Positions 1 to 10,330 of a stretch of DNA of 29,800 nt are shown one piece after another. The stretch comes from a virus. The position numbers were made by a program, and so were the translations under genes. The notes beneath the pieces are model-generated. The model made no database searches and had not been told where the DNA came from. It worked only from the letters and a program-made list of their open reading frames with translations. Position 1 is the first letter of the stretch. The number at the start of each line of letters is the position of its first letter. The DNA lies in the IMG/VR virus record IMGVR_UViG_3300031539_000212, positions 1 to 29,800 of that record; one strand, 5' to 3'.

Positions 1-111
1 GAGAGATTTAAAACACCACCCATCAATTTAGATGCAATGAAGCCAGTTGATAAACCAGAAAAGCCCGTCTACCGAAAAGTAAACCTTAAGACAGAGGCAA
101 ACAATGACTGA
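1..111 (+). CDS. C-terminal end of an unrecognised protein (cut by window edge)
   Basis: An open frame runs from base 1 to a TGA at 109-111 and encodes 36 residues that are basic and proline-containing (ending KTEANND). Its stop lies inside the first codons of the helicase gene, an 8-base overlap, so the two are probably co-transcribed and translationally coupled. Position before a replicative helicase suggests an early or replication gene, but nothing in these residues identifies a family. The 5' part is outside the window. Confidence 0.6.
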   Translation, partial: ERFKTPPINLDAMKPVDKPEKPVYRKVNLKTEANND

Positions 112-1372
112 ATATGATGAGACTGTAGAAGCCGAAGAGAATTTTATAGGCATGCTCCTCGCCGAGCCCGACTGCATTGCTGATCTGACCCAGTACCCGA
201 ACAAGGAATGGTTTTACAATCTTGCCCTGGGTAAAATCTCTGATGCAATTCACAAAGGCAGCACCCAAGACCCTTTTGAAATTTCAGAACTCACAGGTAT
301 TAAACAATCATATTTAGTCAAACTGCAGATAAATGCACCCGTCAGTCACAACCCCAACGCATATTCCAAGGCCATTTACAATAATTTTAAGGGCCGAAAA
401 ATCACAGCTATTGCCGAGAAGTGGATTAAGCAAAAAAAATATAACCAAGATTTCTTTGATGCAGTGGACGATGACCTAAACAACTTAAGCCAGCTCGGCG
501 GCGGGGTTCACGATGTTATGTTTGCCGAGGAATCCCTAGATTTGTGGATGGCAGATAAAGAGAGGAGGATTAGTGGGGAAATCAAACCAGTGCATACTGG
601 CTTTCCCTCTCTTGACCGTTTATTTGCCGGTGGCTATCACAGGAAAGATTTGATCACGGTCGCTGGGAGACCGGGCAGCGGCAAGTCAGCATTTACAAAA
701 AGCAGTCATGTAAAAATGTCTCTGGATGACCCAAATACAAAAGTAGCCATCTTCTCTATAGAAATGGAGCCAAACGAATACCTCGATAGAATGTGCTCAG
801 AATATATGAGAATCGGAGGGACAACCTTAAGAGAAGCTGTAAACCTGACCGACCATGAACTAGATAAAATGATGGATTTCAGAAGAAAATTCCACAGCCA
901 CAACTTTAGCTTCAATAGAATTCAGGCATGTACCGTTTTTGAAATAGTGCGCCTGGCCAAAGCTGCCAAAATGAGAATGAAGGGCCTTGATGCTATTTTC
1001 GTCGACCACCTCCATATAATTAAAAACCATGACAAGCGGCTCCAAGAGCAGGCCTTGCTAGCAGAGCAGACAATCACCCTGAAAAGGCTCGCCCAAGATT
1101 TGGATGTGCCAGTAATAATGGCTGCTCAGTGCAACAGGGATCAGGATAAGCGGCCTGACAAAACCCCTCAGATGTCGGATCTTCGGGGTAGTGGAGCAAT
1201 CGAGCAGGATAGTAATTGCATTGTGTTTATTCATCGGCCGGGGCTTTATGACAAGGCCGTAGATCCAGGAGTGGCAGAGGTAGCACTAAGGAAGAATAGG
1301 CATGGACCATCACCCGCCCAGCTTACCTTTAAATTTGAGCCTGATTACACGGCTTTTTTGGAGATGGGCTGA
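104..1372 (+). CDS. Replicative DNA helicase, DnaB-like
   Basis: Expected to be the ring-shaped 5'-3' helicase that unwinds the phage replication fork. The 422-residue protein has an N-terminal helical DnaB_N-type domain (about residues 5-130) and a RecA-type C-terminal domain. Visible motifs: Walker A GRPGSGKS with Lys194, the following FSIEME segment, Walker B IFVDH with Asp301, the long motif PVIMAAQCNRD followed by SDLRGSGAIEQDSN, and a late RKNRHG segment that fits the arginine-finger region. It is slightly shorter than typical cellular DnaB (about 450-470 residues). The start ATG has a GAGG ribosome site 6 bases upstream and overlaps the previous frame. It is the only recognisable replication gene here and lies convergent to the - strand genes, so it marks the early/late boundary. 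Confidence 0.95.
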   Translation: MTEYDETVEAEENFIGMLLAEPDCIADLTQYPNKEWFYNLALGKISDAIHKGSTQDPFEISELTGIKQSYLVKLQINAPVSHNPNAYSKAIYNNFKGRKITAIAEKWIKQKKYNQDFFDAVDDDLNNLSQLGGGVHDVMFAEESLDLWMADKERRISGEIKPVHTGFPSLDRLFAGGYHRKDLITVAGRPGSGKSAFTKSSHVKMSLDDPNTKVAIFSIEMEPNEYLDRMCSEYMRIGGTTLREAVNLTDHELDKMMDFRRKFHSHNFSFNRIQACTVFEIVRLAKAAKMRMKGLDAIFVDHLHIIKNHDKRLQEQALLAEQTITLKRLAQDLDVPVIMAAQCNRDQDKRPDKTPQMSDLRGSGAIEQDSNCIVFIHRPGLYDKAVDPGVAEVALRKNRHGPSPAQLTFKFEPDYTAFLEMG

Positions 1373-1423: not shown

Positions 1424-1472
1424 GTCCCCCATCCAAGCCCGTGCCAGTGGGTCACTGTTTTGGATGGGGGAC
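1424..1472. terminator. Long hairpin between convergent operons, probable terminator
   Basis: A perfect 13-base inverted repeat, GTCCCCCATCCAA at 1424-1436 and its complement at 1460-1472, encloses a second perfect 5-bp hairpin (CAGTG/CACTG at 1445-1449 and 1453-1457, loop GGT). It lies where + strand transcription of the helicase meets - strand transcription of 1519-3589. No U-run follows directly on either strand; the nearest + strand T-run is near 1497-1508. It may therefore work as a transcript end or RNA-stabilising structure rather than a textbook intrinsic terminator. Confidence 0.6.
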
Positions 1473-1518: not shown

Positions 1519-1788
1519 TTACATCACAGCAGTAATAATTTGAGCGCCACATAAAGCCGATGCGTTTACAAAAGCTTCCCGATCCTCTGCAGCTTCCCTA
1601 GAGATTTCCGACACGCCCTCCATAGCTGGGAGCAAATCAGCCATGGCACTTGCCAGGATCGCTGAGATATCCCCCACATCAAAACCGTCCTTTGACTCCT
1701 CCTTTAGAATTTTGAGGAATTTAGCTACGCCATCACCAAGCTCAGTAAGCTCTTTGGAACAAGAAACCGTTCTTTGAATAGTTGACAT
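1519..1788 (-). CDS. Small phage protein of unknown function
   Basis: An 89-residue acidic protein without a signal peptide or clear membrane segment. The start is set by a perfect AGGAGG about 7 bases upstream of the ATG. The first third is Lys/Leu-rich (KFLKILKEESKDGFDVGD), the rest helical and alanine-rich, and it contains two cysteines. I do not recognise a domain. It resembles in size and composition the short helical proteins often found beside lysis or accessory genes in phages, but that is an impression, not an assignment. It follows the cytochrome-like lipoprotein gene by 11 bases and is the last gene of the - strand accessory operon, just before the 1424-1472 hairpin. Confidence 0.8.
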   Translation of the reverse strand: MSTIQRTVSCSKELTELGDGVAKFLKILKEESKDGFDVGDISAILASAMADLLPAMEGVSEISREAAEDREAFVNASALCGAQIITAVM

Positions 1789-1799
1789 CTTCTTTCCTC

Positions 1800-2126
1800 C
1801 TAAAAAAAATTGAGAAGTCTTTGCCTAGCAGCATTGCCCATTTTAACGGGGCTGTTGTTCGGCGGCATAGAATTATTTTGTGTGCGTGCCCTGGCCCCCG
1901 ATGCCTTTAGAGAAGCCGGGTCTCTAAGCCAAGGGCTGTTCGTGTGACAAGATTCACAATAAGTACCAATGATCTGCCTAGCTTCATTAAACGAAGTTTT
2001 GCCACCCCTGGGAGGAGGGACCGGCGGTGGTGGCTGTTCTGCTGGTGGATCACTAGGCACCCGGACCACCTTAGTTTCGCCGCTGCCACATCCCATAAGC
2101 ATTGCAATAATCAATATTTTTTTCAT
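1800..2126 (-). CDS. Small lipoprotein with a c-type cytochrome domain
   Basis: The 108-residue product starts with a lipoprotein signal (MKKILIIAMLMGC, lipid-acceptor Cys13), followed by a Pro-rich tether (about residues 24-39, including QPPPPVPPPRGG). A compact domain then holds one CESCH heme-attachment motif (Cys57, Cys60, His61) and a downstream SMPPNN (Met87). The order CxxCH, then MPP, then a C-terminal helix is that of class I-type cytochromes c, where His and Met ligate the heme. The protein would be anchored in a membrane of the periplasm. Its ATG overlaps the TGA of the 488-residue lipoprotein as ATGA, so the two are translationally coupled. A structural phage operon is an odd place for this; no electron-transfer partner is visible. 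Confidence 0.85.
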   Translation of the reverse strand: MKKILIIAMLMGCGSGETKVVRVPSDPPAEQPPPPVPPPRGGKTSFNEARQIIGTYCESCHTNSPWLRDPASLKASGARARTQNNSMPPNNSPVKMGNAARQRLLNFF

Positions 2127-3589
2127 AGCGAGGTATCCTTATATGCACCAACATCCTCTACGAGCTGGTCAAAATTAGCACTTAAAACACCTAGCCCAAC
2201 AGTCCCGCCGGACAATAGGTTTCCAAATATCTGGCTGGATAAATTGCTGCCCCTGAGCCTTTGCACAAAAGTTTGCAGAGGCATCAGCAGATAACCAGCC
2301 ACCTGATTTGCATCCATTTCCTGCCTGAACGGGGTAATCATATTCTTGCCTAAGCTGTCCTGATCACCTGGATCTGATGCCCCTAATCGTCTCAGAGAAT
2401 CCTGGTATTCTGACTCAACCCTTCTCAGCCTACCTTCCATTATTGTCTGATTAAAAAACACATCTGATAGCTCTTTTTCCAAAGCATCAAAAGCACCCTG
2501 GTTAGAAATATGGCTTGATAATTGATCTGTAAATTGAATCATTGGGTTTAAAGTTGAATGACAGTGAGCGCAATTTCCCAAAAAAATGCTGGGGTCAAGC
2601 CCGGATGCCGTGGCGTTGAGATTTATGACGACATCATTCGGCGCTACAGTTTCAGCTATCCCTGCAGCTCCATTTAAACGATAGCCCAGCATACCGTTAG
2701 GCAAATTATAGATATGCTCCTGAGCTGTAAACTTGAATATTTTATTACTCCTCCTGACTCCCTGGGCGATAGTCGCCTCCTTTGGAAAAGGGTTCACAAA
2801 ATGGCTATCTGTATCCGACAAAGCACTATCATAAGTGGTGATCACAAAACCGTCATCAGACTCCAATACCTGAATACTGCGAGTTTTTTGCAAAGCTATC
2901 TGGCTAGCTGAAAATCCGGCCAGCACAGCATCTTCAGCATCAAATTCGGCTTGCACGTTCACGCCGATAGATGCAAAGAAGTCAGCTAGTTTTGCTGGCT
3001 GCTCAACCAAATCATAATAAAGGCCATTATTCACCGTCAAGGCATCAGCTTGGGTGGTGGTTGTGAAAAAATCGCTGGCGAAGACATAGGGTTTCAGGGC
3101 CTGCGTTAAAAACTGGATCTGCTGGCCCCTGACTGACTCGGTGACAAAATCCAATAGCAGCTCGCCCTCAATTTTTTGCCACTCACCACGAGTAATTCCG
3201 TAAGAATCAATATCCACCCGGTAAATACATGAGCCCACACCAATAGCCGCCACCCTCTCAAGCTGGGTCTCGGTGGATATGCTGTTAATCCCCACATCAA
3301 TACCGGCTCTAATGTCACTGAGATCCTTTTGCCCTTCATTGTAGTAATTGCATCCAACTAAGTACCTTGCGTTGAGTCTGTCATTATCTGACAAAGTATT
3401 TAGGTCTAAAAGTATCTGATCCTCTAGGATTTCCAGCCCTATATTGTCAGGGTTATCTGGCACATTTAGAGGCGGTGGCGTTGTGATTGGCCCATTGGGG
3501 ATCTGCCTTGCATCCTCTACCACTACCTCTTGATTATTTGGCGAACAACCAAGTAACAAGGCCATAGCCAGGACGACAATAAATTGCAT
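2123..3589 (-). CDS. Large lipoprotein with a CxxCH heme-binding motif
   Basis: A 488-residue product beginning with a lipoprotein signal (ALLLGC, Cys15) and a low-complexity Pro/Asn linker to about residue 48. A mixed domain of some 270 residues, which I do not recognise, follows. A CAHCH motif at 340-344 is followed by about 145 residues of helical sequence. The motif and its surroundings (GNCAHCH, then LNP) look like the heme site of exported cytochrome-type domains. I see no clear axial Met close to it. It is transcribed divergently from 3652-4334 and is coupled by a 4-base ATGA overlap to the small cytochrome lipoprotein. The ribosome site AAGGAGG precedes the ATG. Two heme-type lipoproteins in a row suggest they act together in the periplasm. 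Confidence 0.8.
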   Translation of the reverse strand: MQFIVVLAMALLLGCSPNNQEVVVEDARQIPNGPITTPPPLNVPDNPDNIGLEILEDQILLDLNTLSDNDRLNARYLVGCNYYNEGQKDLSDIRAGIDVGINSISTETQLERVAAIGVGSCIYRVDIDSYGITRGEWQKIEGELLLDFVTESVRGQQIQFLTQALKPYVFASDFFTTTTQADALTVNNGLYYDLVEQPAKLADFFASIGVNVQAEFDAEDAVLAGFSASQIALQKTRSIQVLESDDGFVITTYDSALSDTDSHFVNPFPKEATIAQGVRRSNKIFKFTAQEHIYNLPNGMLGYRLNGAAGIAETVAPNDVVINLNATASGLDPSIFLGNCAHCHSTLNPMIQFTDQLSSHISNQGAFDALEKELSDVFFNQTIMEGRLRRVESEYQDSLRRLGASDPGDQDSLGKNMITPFRQEMDANQVAGYLLMPLQTFVQRLRGSNLSSQIFGNLLSGGTVGLGVLSANFDQLVEDVGAYKDTSL

Positions 3590-3651
3590 GCTAACCTCCT
3601 TATAATGATTAAAGATGACCTTAATTTTAACTTAGCCGAGGGAGCGTAGGG
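3590..3651. promoter_or_regulatory. Divergent intergenic region, likely promoters for both accessory operons
   Basis: This 62-bp A+T-rich gap separates the divergently transcribed genes 2123-3589 (-) and 3652-3921 (+). A perfect TATAAT stands at 3601-3606 on the + strand, 46 bases before the GTG start, but no good -35 box lies 16-18 bases upstream. For the - strand I see A+T-rich stretches but no convincing box pair, and the best TATAAG overlaps the ribosome site. A phage- or host-specific sigma factor may be used. Confidence 0.35.
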
Positions 3652-3921
3652 GTGAAAATTATTCAATCCATTGTTATAGCCACCATATTATCAATGTTTT
3701 CTGGCTGTGTGACTGAAACATTTATGATCGAAAATTCAACATGGAAGACTTGCACAGTTAGGTGTGCCGAAAGAAACCTAAAGTATCTTGGTTATAGAGT
3801 ATCATACAGCTATGTTTACTTCCAAGTATCAGTAGAGGATATTATCTGCGAGTGTTTCGACAACTATAGATATATGATGAGCCCCAGAGGCTTTTACGAT
3901 GGTAATAAGGAGGATTATTAA
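3652..3921 (+). CDS. Small cysteine-rich lipoprotein
   Basis: An 89-residue product with a GTG start preceded by a GGAG-type site. The N-terminus is a lipoprotein signal ending SMFSGC (Cys19). The mature part is short and holds further cysteines in CTVRC and CEC arrangements, which could form disulfides in an oxidising compartment, and it is Tyr-rich. It has no CxxCH and I recognise no family. Small phage lipoproteins of this kind can be superinfection-exclusion factors or outer-membrane spanins; neither is shown here, and the lysis pair lies 19 kb away. It overlaps the next gene by one base (TAATG), so the pair forms a unit, transcribed opposite to the late operon. Confidence 0.75.
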   Translation: MKIIQSIVIATILSMFSGCVTETFMIENSTWKTCTVRCAERNLKYLGYRVSYSYVYFQVSVEDIICECFDNYRYMMSPRGFYDGNKEDY

Positions 3922-4334
3922 TGAAGTATTTAGCGGCTTTTCTGGTTTCTTTTATGCTGTGTCCCGGCTTTGCCCTGGCTCAGGGAATTGATGACAAAAC
4001 TGATTCACTAGATACAGAGGAGGAAAGGTGTTTTTTTGATCTGACCGTCATCGGCAGACAGAGTTTCATCGAGAACAACCTAGCTTCTAATTGGTGTGGC
4101 TCTGTCCACAAGCTCTTTGGATTTGAAAGGTCATGCTTTATCAGGCGGCATAACAACGGTAGCTGGGTGGCCGATTTCAGGCATCAGAGAAGATTCCACG
4201 GGTCATCTTATGACGAGCTGTTCCGAGGATTTACCCAGTGGTCTGACCGGCATCTGTTCCGAGGGATAAGATTTGATCATTTCATCAGATATTCGCCAAC
4301 CTGCTTTGGCCGTGGTGGTGGTGGAAACTATTAA
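3921..4334 (+). CDS. Secreted cysteine-containing protein of unknown function
   Basis: A 137-residue product with a standard cleavable signal peptide (hydrophobic core about residues 3-17, likely cleavage after FALA-Q). The mature protein has four cysteines, consistent with two disulfides, and is rich in Arg, Phe, His and Trp (RRFHGSSYDELFRGF, SDRHLFRGIRFDHF), ending in a Gly-rich tail. No catalytic motif is evident. It starts at the ATG of a TAATG overlap with the Cys-rich lipoprotein and has a strong AAGGAGG site, so the two are probably made together. A strong terminator follows directly. It reads like a phage accessory gene acting in the periplasm or outside the cell. Confidence 0.75.
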   Translation: MKYLAAFLVSFMLCPGFALAQGIDDKTDSLDTEEERCFFDLTVIGRQSFIENNLASNWCGSVHKLFGFERSCFIRRHNNGSWVADFRHQRRFHGSSYDELFRGFTQWSDRHLFRGIRFDHFIRYSPTCFGRGGGGNY

Positions 4335-4437: not shown

Positions 4438-4815
4438 TCACTTGCCATAATGGAACAAATTATCAGGCAACACCTTGGCCCGATGCCTGACCGTTCCATC
4501 GTTATATACTTCAACCACATCACTCCTACAAACCATTGTCAGGCCTACTATGGTGGGCTTAAACTCACCAAATTTGCCCCTAAAAGTGATTCGACCCATC
4601 CACTCAAAATTGCAGAAATCTGGGCCTGATATTTGAGCAGCTATCGTGGTCTCTTTGGTGACAAGATCCCTCTTTTCAATCATTGCATGGGCCAGACCTT
4701 CCTTGTTCTGACACCACGCTTGATTTTCCGTATCGCCTCGGTCAGCCTCCTTGCCCCATCGACCATACAAAACTTTTCCCGAAGCCCAGATTAGTTTCCA
4801 TCTCACTAAGTACAA
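4438..4815 (-). CDS. Unknown protein downstream of the tailspike
   Basis: The last gene of the late operon. The longest open frame starts at an ATG at 4881, inside the tailspike gene and without a ribosome site. I prefer the TTG at 4815, which has GAGGGG 6 bases upstream and lies just after the tailspike stop; this gives 125 residues. The product is Trp-rich near its start (RWKLIWASGKVLYGRW) and mostly beta-like further on, with three cysteines and a C-terminal VEVYNDGTV segment. There is no signal peptide. Genes directly after tail fibres or spikes often encode fibre chaperones, attachment proteins or anti-receptor accessories, but I see no motif that assigns one of these roles. Confidence 0.65.
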   Translation of the reverse strand: MYLVRWKLIWASGKVLYGRWGKEADRGDTENQAWCQNKEGLAHAMIEKRDLVTKETTIAAQISGPDFCNFEWMGRITFRGKFGEFKPTIVGLTMVCRSDVVEVYNDGTVRHRAKVLPDNLFHYGK

Positions 4816-4828
4816 AACAGTCCCCTCA

Positions 4829-7800
4829 CTAAAATAGAAATCCGTAGTTAGTTCCCAGAGTGCCGCCTGAAATTGCGTCATACATGACTGAGGAACTAAC
4901 GATTAACGAAGAATTGAGTATCGTCAAGGTGCCATCAATATAGGAATTACTTATAATGTTGCCCAAGTCATTAGTGAAAGGCGCAATTGCAGTACCATAA
5001 GCCATGGATACTTCGCCAGTCCCATGATAGTTAATCTGCACAATACACTTGGCTCCCCTTAATCTCAGTATACCGGCCCCTACCGATTCATCTATGTGGC
5101 CGAATGTAACAACGCAAGAGTATAGCTCTGCCCTCTCGGATGCAAAGCTCTTTACACCGCCGGTGCAGCCCCCTAGCCAATCAACACTAAGGGTTGAGCG
5201 ATAAGTATAATCCCAACTGCCAAGCCACCTTTGATCGGTTCCATAGGCCCTAGTGATATTAACATTATTGTATTTGGCTGGGCTGGGCGATTGGCCTCCT
5301 ATCTTATTTTCTTCAGTACCAAATAGCTCAATTCCTTTGAGCGTATTGTTACCCCAACCAAGGCCTGCGGAAGTATTATTGGTTATCCCTGACCATCCAG
5401 CCGTGGATGATGTAGTTTTTAAATTAACCGTAACATCAGAAACTTTATTATTAAAAGCACTTTGAAAAAACAAAGCTGCACGGGTGTTAGTTCCAGCACC
5501 ATTAGCCTCAATCGTCACTCTACTGACTTCGCAATTTATTGAATTGATAAACACAATGCCCCGTGAAACCGAAATATTATTAATTATGGTCAAATCTGAA
5601 ACTTTGGTTTGCAATGTTTGCCAATTGGCATGATTTGGCGTCCTAAAGAAAACAAAATCTATGGTGGATGTGCTGCCTTTCCACAACCGATCTAAGGTGA
5701 GAGTATTGGTGCCGCTATCAACTGCTGTTACTTCATGCATTTCACCCGTTGGGCCTATGATAAGCATGTCGCCAATTAAGAATGGGTCGGTAGCAATGGT
5801 ATATACGGCTTGGTTACTCTCAAAGGTCATATTTAAAAGACCGGCTCCGGAGGCGGCATCCCAAGTTAAATTGCTGCTAGTTCTTGTACTAGCTGCAACC
5901 GCCGTTACCGCAATCTGGGGCATTGCAATACTTTCACTTCCTGAGTTAGTGGTTATTATTACGCCATCCCGACTTTCACCTATTAATTTTTGGCCTAATT
6001 TTAAAACAATAGGATCTTCTGAATAGGAACCTCTTCTAATAAAAATCGTGGCTCCTACTGATTCAGTAACGCAAGCGGTCACTATAGAAACATAGTCAGC
6101 ACCGCCAGCCGCATCAACCACAGCATCATATAAAGTTTGCCCACCACCACCAAGACTTGGTGGCGATGTATGGTCCCAGCCCGTATTCCAAACTGGCTCG
6201 TTGGCGTCAAAAATACCGCCATATATAACCGACGATGCAATAATTAAATGGTTACTAGCAGCCGTGAATCTAATGCTATTTTGCAACCAAGAATCGTGAA
6301 GGACATTAGTATTTTCGTCAGTCCTTAAGGCCGGTACATTTATTAGGATTTGGGTGTATTGTTGATAGCCTTTCTTTATTGAGAATCTTGACCGAGCAGA
6401 ACCGATATGCAGCACGCCATGCAAATCATCAATCAAGCCAAATTCAAAATCACAATCAAACCATTCAGCGAAACTTGCCGAAGGGGAAGAGTCAAATATT
6501 GAAGACACTGAGGTAAGTCTATCAACCTTAAAACTACTATAAGCGCAAAAATCAGTGTTGATAAAACATTCGCCACCGGAGGCCTGACTGATAGAGCTAA
6601 AATGAAAATCGTTGTAGACCATAGGGTCAGTTATCTGGCCGTTAATTGAGTTTGCTGAACAACCTACCATTTTACAATTTTTAAATTTGAAATGGCTTGC
6701 CCCTGACGCCATCCTTATTGCCGCAGTAGTTAGCGTTAAGTGTTCACTAATAAAATCAACATTTTCTAGGGTAACTCTAGCTGATACAGTCTTAGCGTCA
6801 AACATGGGGTCATTGGCACTAGTTGAAACGCTGAACATGGCCACGTCTTTTAATACGAAATTCAAAGTCGTAGCTAGTTCTATTCCTCGGCCAGTAGCGT
6901 TTGTCGTTCTAATAGTTAGATTGAATAGCCCATGTACTTGATCCTTCCAGCCAGTTGTACTTGCTACCCTATTCACAATCCAATCAGTTGGACCAGAAGG
7001 CCCTTTCCAAACGGCATCAAGGGTGACTGTATTTAGACCGCCATCTACGACGTCAATTTCAAATTGATCGCCGCTAGGGCCAATCAAACATATGTCAGTT
7101 GGCGACGGGTCTGTATTCCCGCTATAGGTTGCGGTAGCCGAACCTTGAACTACAGTTAATAAGCCTAAACCGTTAACAGTATCCCATGCACCATTATCAA
7201 CTGTTCGTCTTGTTCGGCCCCTGGAAAAACCACTTGAAGTTCTTGGCGCTCTAATAGCAGGGCTTGCAGCTATATTAAAAGATAGGACTACCCCGTCACG
7301 ACTTTCGCCATATACTTTTTGACCTTCTTTCATTTGAGTTAAAACCGTTTCTGCATAAGCCCCATTTCTAATATAAAAAGTGGTGTCTACTGGTTCGGTT
7401 TCTATAGCTGTTTTAAAATCTACATAATCACCGTTACCAGCAGCATCAATAATCACATCATATAAAGTTTGGCCACCACCACCACCAGCACCACCTATGG
7501 ATTGAATTAAAACCGCAAAGGTAGAAACACCACCACTGTTATTTGTGACGCTGATCTGAGTGGTGAGATTTCCTGGTGTGGCGACGATATCGTAATCACT
7601 TTCGGTTGTGACGGTAAGCTCACCACCAGCACCAGCCAAAAGATAAACTTTAAAAGCCAACTCATCGAAAGGCATCTTGAAATTATGGTCAAAAATAACG
7701 GTCGCACCATTACCAACAGCGATACCCTCGAAGTATCTAGCACTAAGATTGTCGCCAATCTTAATAAAATTGTTTTCCACTTGAGTATGCAGAGGCGCAC

Positions 7801-7855
7801 CACCTGGATCATCTAGCGCCGGGTGATCAATCTGCAACCTGCTTACTATTGCCAT
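4829..7855 (-). CDS. Tailspike/tail fibre with two beta-helix modules
   Basis: A 1008-residue protein, probably the receptor-binding or polysaccharide-degrading spike at the tail tip. The first ~125 residues form an attachment domain and end in a Gly-rich linker. Two related modules follow, starting near residues 128 and 572. Each begins GGQTLYD, then a DYV segment, then FYIRNGAY or IFIRRGSY, then a GQK-GESRDGV stretch. This pattern resembles the first coils of pectinesterase/pectate-lyase-type right-handed beta-helices. Each module later has an IGP(S/T)G insert and a VWKG or LWKG segment. The repeat spacing of about 444 residues means nearly the whole body is a tandem duplication that has diverged. 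Active-site residues cannot be named from sequence. The start ATG has an AGG-type site a few bases upstream. Confidence 0.85.
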   Translation of the reverse strand: MAIVSRLQIDHPALDDPGGAPLHTQVENNFIKIGDNLSARYFEGIAVGNGATVIFDHNFKMPFDELAFKVYLLAGAGGELTVTTESDYDIVATPGNLTTQISVTNNSGGVSTFAVLIQSIGGAGGGGGQTLYDVIIDAAGNGDYVDFKTAIETEPVDTTFYIRNGAYAETVLTQMKEGQKVYGESRDGVVLSFNIAASPAIRAPRTSSGFSRGRTRRTVDNGAWDTVNGLGLLTVVQGSATATYSGNTDPSPTDICLIGPSGDQFEIDVVDGGLNTVTLDAVWKGPSGPTDWIVNRVASTTGWKDQVHGLFNLTIRTTNATGRGIELATTLNFVLKDVAMFSVSTSANDPMFDAKTVSARVTLENVDFISEHLTLTTAAIRMASGASHFKFKNCKMVGCSANSINGQITDPMVYNDFHFSSISQASGGECFINTDFCAYSSFKVDRLTSVSSIFDSSPSASFAEWFDCDFEFGLIDDLHGVLHIGSARSRFSIKKGYQQYTQILINVPALRTDENTNVLHDSWLQNSIRFTAASNHLIIASSVIYGGIFDANEPVWNTGWDHTSPPSLGGGGQTLYDAVVDAAGGADYVSIVTACVTESVGATIFIRRGSYSEDPIVLKLGQKLIGESRDGVIITTNSGSESIAMPQIAVTAVAASTRTSSNLTWDAASGAGLLNMTFESNQAVYTIATDPFLIGDMLIIGPTGEMHEVTAVDSGTNTLTLDRLWKGSTSTIDFVFFRTPNHANWQTLQTKVSDLTIINNISVSRGIVFINSINCEVSRVTIEANGAGTNTRAALFFQSAFNNKVSDVTVNLKTTSSTAGWSGITNNTSAGLGWGNNTLKGIELFGTEENKIGGQSPSPAKYNNVNITRAYGTDQRWLGSWDYTYRSTLSVDWLGGCTGGVKSFASERAELYSCVVTFGHIDESVGAGILRLRGAKCIVQINYHGTGEVSMAYGTAIAPFTNDLGNIISNSYIDGTLTILNSSLIVSSSVMYDAISGGTLGTNYGFLF

Positions 7856-8593: not shown

Positions 8594-10330
8594 TTACTCC
8601 TCTAAAATTACTGCGTCATAGCCCCCGACTGTGCCGGGATACCCAGGGACATACCCAGGAAAAGGCGTCATCTGATAAGACCAAAGTTTGAGGGTCACAA
8701 CTCCGCTTGGAGAATAGCCGATGTCTCTGACCGTACACACTACATTATCAAACAAACTAGAACCTATCTTAACATCAAACTTAACATCTTGACCGATGTC
8801 TAAAAGTAAACTCCTCCAAGTTACTTGTAAATCGAGCACTTCGAATTGACTGGATGCTAGCCGTAAAATCTCTGTTATTTGCAGATTACAAACTGTCCTA
8901 TCTACCAGATTTGGAAAGAAGACCCCCTTGGCTATGGGCTTCGTCGCATCTATCGAAGCCTGATTTCTAAATATGCTGGTTTTAAAATTATTGCCATCTA
9001 GGCTGGGATTGAAATCAAAATCGCCTTGAAGCCTGTTAAATACCGTCGTGTCGCTGATTGCAATGCTGAGAGAATCCCGGGCGACATCCCAATTTTTGAG
9101 CGTGTAGGATGGGCTGGCGGCAAAATCCTCAAAATGTAAAGATTTCAACTTCACATTAAGATTTTCCCTCTCAATAAACAATTCAAGGCGAACTTGTTCC
9201 AGCAATTGCAATGCATATTCCAGGGCACCCTGGGCATCTTGCACCCAGACACGGCTGATAAAAGTTGATATGGCTGATTGAGCTGGGGCTGCTTTGGTCC
9301 GGTAGGTTTCCCAATTTGCATCAAAGTCAGCCGGGACAAGAGGCGTGTAAGTCAGCAAAATATGCTTTGCTTGGGCCACAATATTGTCATCAAAACCAAC
9401 CCCACCAATATCTACACCGACCACCTGGACAAGGAATTCATCCCCTGAGCTGTATTCGTATGGGCCGAATGGTATTGCCTCGTCACCAGTTGGAAACCAC
9501 TCCACGGCTGTATCTTGCAGCACCTCGAAGTAATTTTTATCCCCGTTCACGTTGACGATCTCAGTAGAGGGCACTAAAGCATAATTGTTGTCATCAACTT
9601 TGTAATAGCAGCCCCCATTAATAAAAAACTGGTTAACCGTTTCAGATATAACAAGCTTCACATTATTCCGAGGGGCATCCTGTACGTTCGGATCAGCACC
9701 ATTAACGACAAAAGCCGGGATCTGTGCCGGGGTCCTGTTATTAAACTGGGTCCAGTTCCCCAAAATCATCGGCTTCAATGTGCCTATCAGAGAATCTTCA
9801 ATAAATGGGTATTCTGAGTTTGAAAATGTGACCGTGGGGAAAGACTCGTTGATAGTATCGTAGCGGTCTCTGGCCGTAAAATTGAGGGTTTTGGTGGTCC
9901 TGCCCATACCACCAACTTCTGTTATAAACCCCTCAAAAATAGTTTTATAGCTGGATGCAATATCATCAATGCCGATCAGAATTGTTACGTCCAATCCAAC
10001 CCAATTAAGATAATCGTCTCCAGCAGGGAGATAATTATTAAAGCGTCCATCAACATTCGACACTTCAAGCGAGATAGCCGAAAAAGTGATCCCCGGTACA
10101 AGCCACTCACCAATCGTTTTAGAGATGAGAGGCATGTTTTGAATGAGCGCAGTATAAAACTGGCCGCCGACATACTTGTGTCTATCACTGACATAAATGG
10201 TTCCTCCGTCAGGTGTTTTTATATGTGCCACCATCTCGATTTTACCATTTAAATTGTCGGCCATCTCGTCTAGCAGATCCTGGGTAAGATCCGTTGCTGT
10301 CAAATAAGGGCGTCGGTCAACTGTAGTCAT
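8594..10330 (-). CDS. Putative tail hub / baseplate protein
   Basis: A 578-residue protein two genes downstream of the tape measure, where long-tailed phages encode the hub that closes the tail tube. The first 180 residues show a tail-hub-like pattern: an IYVSDRHKYVGGQFY segment, then LEVSNVDGRFNNYLPAGD, an EGFI segment, and a TLNFTARDRYDTI stretch. The C-terminal ~120 residues (DLQVTWRSLLLDIGQDVKF, then a VRDIGYSPSG element) resemble the closing domain of such hubs. No peptidase or muramidase motif is visible. Its ATG overlaps the stop of the preceding gene (TAATG). The hub call rests on pattern and position, not on a diagnostic motif. Confidence 0.7.
   Translation of the reverse strand: MTTVDRRPYLTATDLTQDLLDEMADNLNGKIEMVAHIKTPDGGTIYVSDRHKYVGGQFYTALIQNMPLISKTIGEWLVPGITFSAISLEVSNVDGRFNNYLPAGDDYLNWVGLDVTILIGIDDIASSYKTIFEGFITEVGGMGRTTKTLNFTARDRYDTINESFPTVTFSNSEYPFIEDSLIGTLKPMILGNWTQFNNRTPAQIPAFVVNGADPNVQDAPRNNVKLVISETVNQFFINGGCYYKVDDNNYALVPSTEIVNVNGDKNYFEVLQDTAVEWFPTGDEAIPFGPYEYSSGDEFLVQVVGVDIGGVGFDDNIVAQAKHILLTYTPLVPADFDANWETYRTKAAPAQSAISTFISRVWVQDAQGALEYALQLLEQVRLELFIERENLNVKLKSLHFEDFAASPSYTLKNWDVARDSLSIAISDTTVFNRLQGDFDFNPSLDGNNFKTSIFRNQASIDATKPIAKGVFFPNLVDRTVCNLQITEILRLASSQFEVLDLQVTWRSLLLDIGQDVKFDVKIGSSLFDNVVCTVRDIGYSPSGVVTLKLWSYQMTPFPGYVPGYPGTVGGYDAVILEE

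Follow-up and report, generated by a model that had tools for sequence, protein, structure and literature searches.

The DNA analysed here (the window) is the whole of the 29,800-base IMG/VR virus record IMGVR_UViG_3300031539_000212 and encodes 29 proteins with 9643 aa in total. On the minus strand, read from right to left, the genes for head morphogenesis, the head protease and the major head protein come first, followed by the neck and tail terminator genes, the tail tube, a 2305-aa tape measure protein and the baseplate hub. The 1008-aa protein after the baseplate hub is taken to be the tail spike by its position and make-up. This spike-like protein (4829-7855) shows an apparent internal duplication, in which two stretches begin with GGGGQTLYD and the sequence after each is similar. 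A 147-aa gene (4438-4881) lies after the spike gene here, while its homologue lies before the spike gene in the relatives L011 and L119. Two plus-strand genes at 3652-4334 encode secreted-looking products of 89 aa (lipoprotein-like) and 137 aa, neither of which gave a convincing family match. Divergent to these two genes is a pair of overlapping minus-strand genes, and the features of this region are as follows.

3590..3651, no strand: divergent intergenic gap, presumed location of the operon promoter (from gene layout only)
2123..3589, minus strand: large subunit gene, 488 aa, predicted unnamed c-type heme domain at about aa 50-480 (HMM, tblastn, AF2)
2693..2704, minus strand: LPNG family signature, aa 296-299 of the large protein (P297 and G299 invariant in a 19-sequence alignment)
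2558..2572, minus strand: CAHCH at aa 340-344 of the large protein, putative site of heme attachment (both Cys and the His unvarying across 92 aligned members)
2123..2126, minus strand: ATGA overlap of the large-gene stop and the small-gene start (sequence)
1800..2126, minus strand: small subunit gene, 108 aa, encoding a proline-rich linker and then a predicted class-I-like monoheme cytochrome c domain (HMM, alignment)
1944..1958, minus strand: CESCH at aa 57-61 of the small protein, putative site of heme attachment (invariant in 12 sequences)
1860..1868, minus strand: MPP, probable axial Met and next Pro, aa 87-89 of the small protein (P88 invariant, M87 nearly so)
1519..1788, minus strand: 89-aa gene, probable third gene of the operon, 11 nt downstream of the small gene (ORF list)
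1424..1472, no strand: inverted repeat with 20-nt arms, possible two-way terminator between the convergent DnaB and lipoprotein genes (repeat search)
104-1372, plus strand: DnaB helicase gene, converging on the lipoprotein genes

The gene order on the minus strand is thus 488 aa, 108 aa and 89 aa, and the pair looks like its own short operon, placed between the late tail module and the DnaB helicase gene and behind the two opposite-strand genes. The initial annotation had put it inside a phage structural region; the tail module does adjoin it, but the pair sits at the border with the DnaB gene. A border between phage modules is a usual place for cargo genes. The ribosome site of the 488-aa gene is good (TAAGGAGG, 5 nt before the ATG), while a sigma-70 promoter scan of the gap at 3590..3651 returned no site. 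The 89-aa gene was also compared with the gene that adjoins the pair in a huge phage, and homology was not convincing. Relatives of the window phage were found via its capsid and tail proteins, and none of their records reaches the pair region, so that the pair is seen once in this phage's lineage.

The open reading frames, both motifs and the ATGA overlap were located where the initial annotation had described two lipoprotein-like genes with CESCH...MPP and CAHCH. Each of the two N-termini has a lipobox-like end (LLGC or LMGC), suggesting that both proteins are probably exported and lipid-anchored. Unusually, the hydrophobic stretch at the N-terminus of the 488-aa protein is not preceded by any positive charge. 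The CxxCH motif is more than chance, because about 0.008 occurrences are expected over all 29 window proteins and none of 5000 within-protein shuffles placed CxxCH in both proteins of the pair.

The 108-aa protein is by its layout a predicted short class-I-like cytochrome c. An alignment of 12 small domains shows CxxCH and Met-Pro conserved, except that one domain lacks the Met, and the proposed single-heme layout is thereby borne out. In an HMM of 11 relatives the 108-aa protein ranks best among the window proteins, at 12 bits. Since this score is weak, the protein is placed in the family by its motif, gene order and partner taken together. Pfam Cytochrome_CBB3 (PF13442) or PSCyt1 (PF07635) is matched by the small domains of cellular relatives and, weakly, by those of phages; CxxCH...MP is retained in the window protein, which falls far below the Cytochrome_CBB3 cut-off (E=0.19, 12.5 bits vs a gathering score of 27). 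A reading of the small protein as a spanin (phrog_456, E=0.087) was rejected, as the match is confined to the signal and proline part.

The 488-aa protein has no match in Pfam, NCBIfam, PHROG or PDB sequences, and single-protein scans of viral contigs and of phage records gave no relative. Its family surfaced only via a plasmid match and then via block-alignment queries. In tblastn against plasmids it matches a Neorhizobium 'c-type cytochrome' (E = 2e-10, 24% over 344 residues), and CAHCH of the window is aligned with CFDCH of that protein. When 91 relatives were made into an HMM from which the window protein was left out, the 488-aa protein scored 155 bits against it. By these comparisons the 488-aa protein is assigned to an unnamed c-type heme domain family. 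Searching bacterial genomes with the conserved blocks gave 452 coding stretches, and the best 80 of the 452 are almost all from Poribacteria; the family is present in 49 of 59 Poribacteria genomes vs 4 of 199 Planctomycetota genomes. A screen of polar, aromatic and ligand-type residues across 92 aligned members found Y191, R237, D254, E291, C340, C343 and H344 unvarying, and no second His or Met common to all of them. The conservation of CxxCH, on which the initial annotation had staked its reading, holds in all aligned relatives of both proteins.

The AlphaFold (AF2) model of the 488-aa protein is fair, with pLDDT 76 and pTM 0.78, and a Foldseek search of PDB and BFVD with this model gave no match that reached E 0.001. 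Structure prediction and family search, as proposed earlier, therefore yielded homologues and a fair model but no Pfam or NCBIfam family and no PDB fold match. The 488-aa protein is an unnamed domain for which no solved structural relative was found, rather than an ordinary cytochrome. A Sec23 zinc-finger match (0.19) and a DUF7564 match (0.013, below its cut-off) were set aside as chance. With the PADLOC anti-phage defence models the pair showed no family membership; the sole match, to capP, was weak and covered 32 residues (E=0.004).

By sequence comparison, each protein of the pair is the counterpart of one half of a diheme protein, and in bacteria these halves form a single fused chain. 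Bacterial diheme proteins annotated as 'c-type cytochrome' (WP_227705619.1 of Neorhizobium and many from Poribacteria) have a homologous large domain with an LPNG-type motif and CxxCH, and they contain the same two heme domains as the phage pair. In the Neorhizobium, full-length Poribacteria and Planctomycetota members examined, the monoheme domain precedes the large domain within a single protein, often with C-terminal additions, and the distance between the two CxxCH motifs is mostly about 360-410 residues. The phages instead have two genes with the large one first, a split layout that recurs among them and is absent from the cellular members examined. In L026, from Poribacteria, a stop codon in frame separates the two heme domains. 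In a Planctomycetota protein (L109, 1-2862) a Ser/Thr kinase domain is joined to the diheme unit, perhaps forming a heme-based receptor kinase.

A survey of other phages, as the initial annotation had suggested, recovered the pair repeatedly. In the 595-kb huge phage LR756511.1 the large protein (611 aa) and the small protein (243 aa) are encoded by adjacent genes, and this phage's kin among IMG/VR records (L100-L103) carry the same cassette. The large-then-small order with CxxCH...MP in the small protein is found in LR756511, L100-L103, L117, L106 and L107. L117 shares the ATGA overlap, as does L107 when its start is placed at 8597. In L106 and L107 the pair lies near terminase and portal genes. 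The two proteins are separate genes in the window and most phage members and are fused in L105, where a single 614-aa protein with both heme domains lies between tail genes and a VanY-type endolysin; the AlphaFold model of this fusion is poor over the small domain. The records of L100, L101, L105 and L107 contain terminase, and that of L106 contains terminase and portal; the phage status of L103 and L117 is given by the IMG/VR call and synteny. At the cassette position of the C1-like peptidase, L117 (5056-7038) has an apparent intein with Hint and LAGLIDADG matches. One further IMG/VR record (L104/L116) was left out of the phage count as an apparent Poribacteria contig without a terminase or portal match. 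At 78,675 bases, this record seems to correspond to the Poribacteria genome contig PYJC01000177 (L080), and it has a tape-measure-like ORF near its diheme gene.

Phage copies form their own deep branches on the tree. One group joins the window and L105 (support 100/98, long branches), and the other joins the huge phages with L117, L106 and L107 (support 96/96). Between the two phage relatives L101 and L103 the pair is under purifying selection: dN/dS is 0.10 in the large gene and 0.21 in the small one, rough values since dS is near 1. Synonymous changes between L106 and L107 are saturated, so no ratio is given. As the pair is found in several unrelated phages and fused in bacteria, it constitutes a genuine phage module that recurs and as yet has no name; this module is probably redox-active. 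Since it occurs in other phages, it is also not just host DNA beside a prophage, a doubt raised at the outset.

We propose that the pair is a phage-carried, two-subunit version of the bacterial extracytoplasmic diheme protein. The cytochrome c maturation machinery of the host would attach one heme to each protein. The small subunit would have a His/Met heme and move electrons, and the large subunit would have a heme with one conserved ligand and the invariant Tyr/Arg/Asp/Glu set. Because of this ligand pattern and residue set, the large heme is probably the reactive site. The absence of a conserved second His or Met may indicate an open site at the large heme; lineage-specific ligands are possible instead. 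The large heme may work like that of a diheme peroxidase or oxidase, a likeness of function that does not imply kinship. Diheme cytochrome c peroxidases and MauG likewise combine one electron-transfer heme with one reactive heme; this parallel is speculative, and Pfam, PDB sequences and Foldseek gave no sequence or fold match to them. We assign a probability of about 0.75 to the biochemical part, that is, a two-subunit extracytoplasmic redox unit in which the small His/Met heme passes electrons and the large heme reacts. Made from its own operon, the pair would then serve as an electron sink or an oxidant-removing enzyme at the periplasmic face of the infected cell; the unit and this role taken together fall somewhat short of even odds. 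We infer every step of this scheme, from lipidation, heme attachment and ligands to redox chemistry, timing and benefit to the phage.

A different use of the same hemes would be sensing: the diheme unit would detect a gas or the redox state beyond the membrane, and the phage would set its development or lysis timing by this signal. The kinase fusion of L109 suits sensing over catalysis, and a large heme without a universal second ligand is consistent with it. However, no signalling domain was recognised in the phage copies and no partner receptor beside them, and the other cellular fusions examined carry LRR/cohesin, TPR or DUF4384 parts; we regard a sensor as unlikely. It is quite unlikely, too, that the pair belongs to the lysis module and acts at the envelope with an endolysin or other peptidase late in infection. 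The fused protein of L105 lies directly before the VanY-type endolysin, a C1-like peptidase is upstream in the huge phages and an M10 matrixin in L106. In relative G215 a gene with weak likeness to the 89-aa window gene (28%, E=0.045, a single comparison) adjoins an Amidase_2 endolysin. Yet no peptidase or endolysin was recognised beside the window pair, those near the other phage copies belong to different families, and tail/lysis borders are common cargo sites.

Superinfection exclusion, another function raised in the initial annotation, would have the surface lipoproteins block a receptor with the heme in a structural part. The lipoprotein-like signals would fit such a function, and so would the position at a module border in what seems a separate operon, an arrangement also seen with cargo genes. 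To our knowledge, known exclusion lipoproteins are small and heme-free, which counts against it, and the retention of CxxCH and a few other residues across very distant hosts and phages is better suited by a heme function, so we hold exclusion to be very unlikely. Neutral host cargo or an assembly join is the least credible reading: the family is cellular and abundant in Poribacteria and a single contig covers the pair region, but the deep phage branches, the split layout that recurs in phages but in none of the cellular members examined, a base composition in agreement with the rest of the window and the purifying selection between phage relatives all argue against it.

The redox unit is thus our preferred reading. 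Its boldest extension is that a specialised, gene-split diheme enzyme with a new heme-protein fold recurs in unrelated phages and controls envelope energy or redox state late in infection, and this we consider somewhat unlikely. Reports of c-type cytochromes carried by phages are few, and soxD, a phage auxiliary metabolic gene with a cytochrome motif (PMC8190135), is the clearest case that we found described. Like the pair, SoxD is a phage-carried c-heme protein, but it belongs to a known sulfur pathway whereas the pair can be assigned to no named pathway. Our literature search turned up no account of this cassette. The large protein represents a heme domain with no family model or solved relative found, kept together with its partner cytochrome by very different phages, which range from a 595-kb huge phage to a 43 kb tailed phage contig. 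The large domain offers structural work a target within a bacterial family that is common yet unnamed, and the two small genes make phage redox chemistry in the host envelope a directly testable question.
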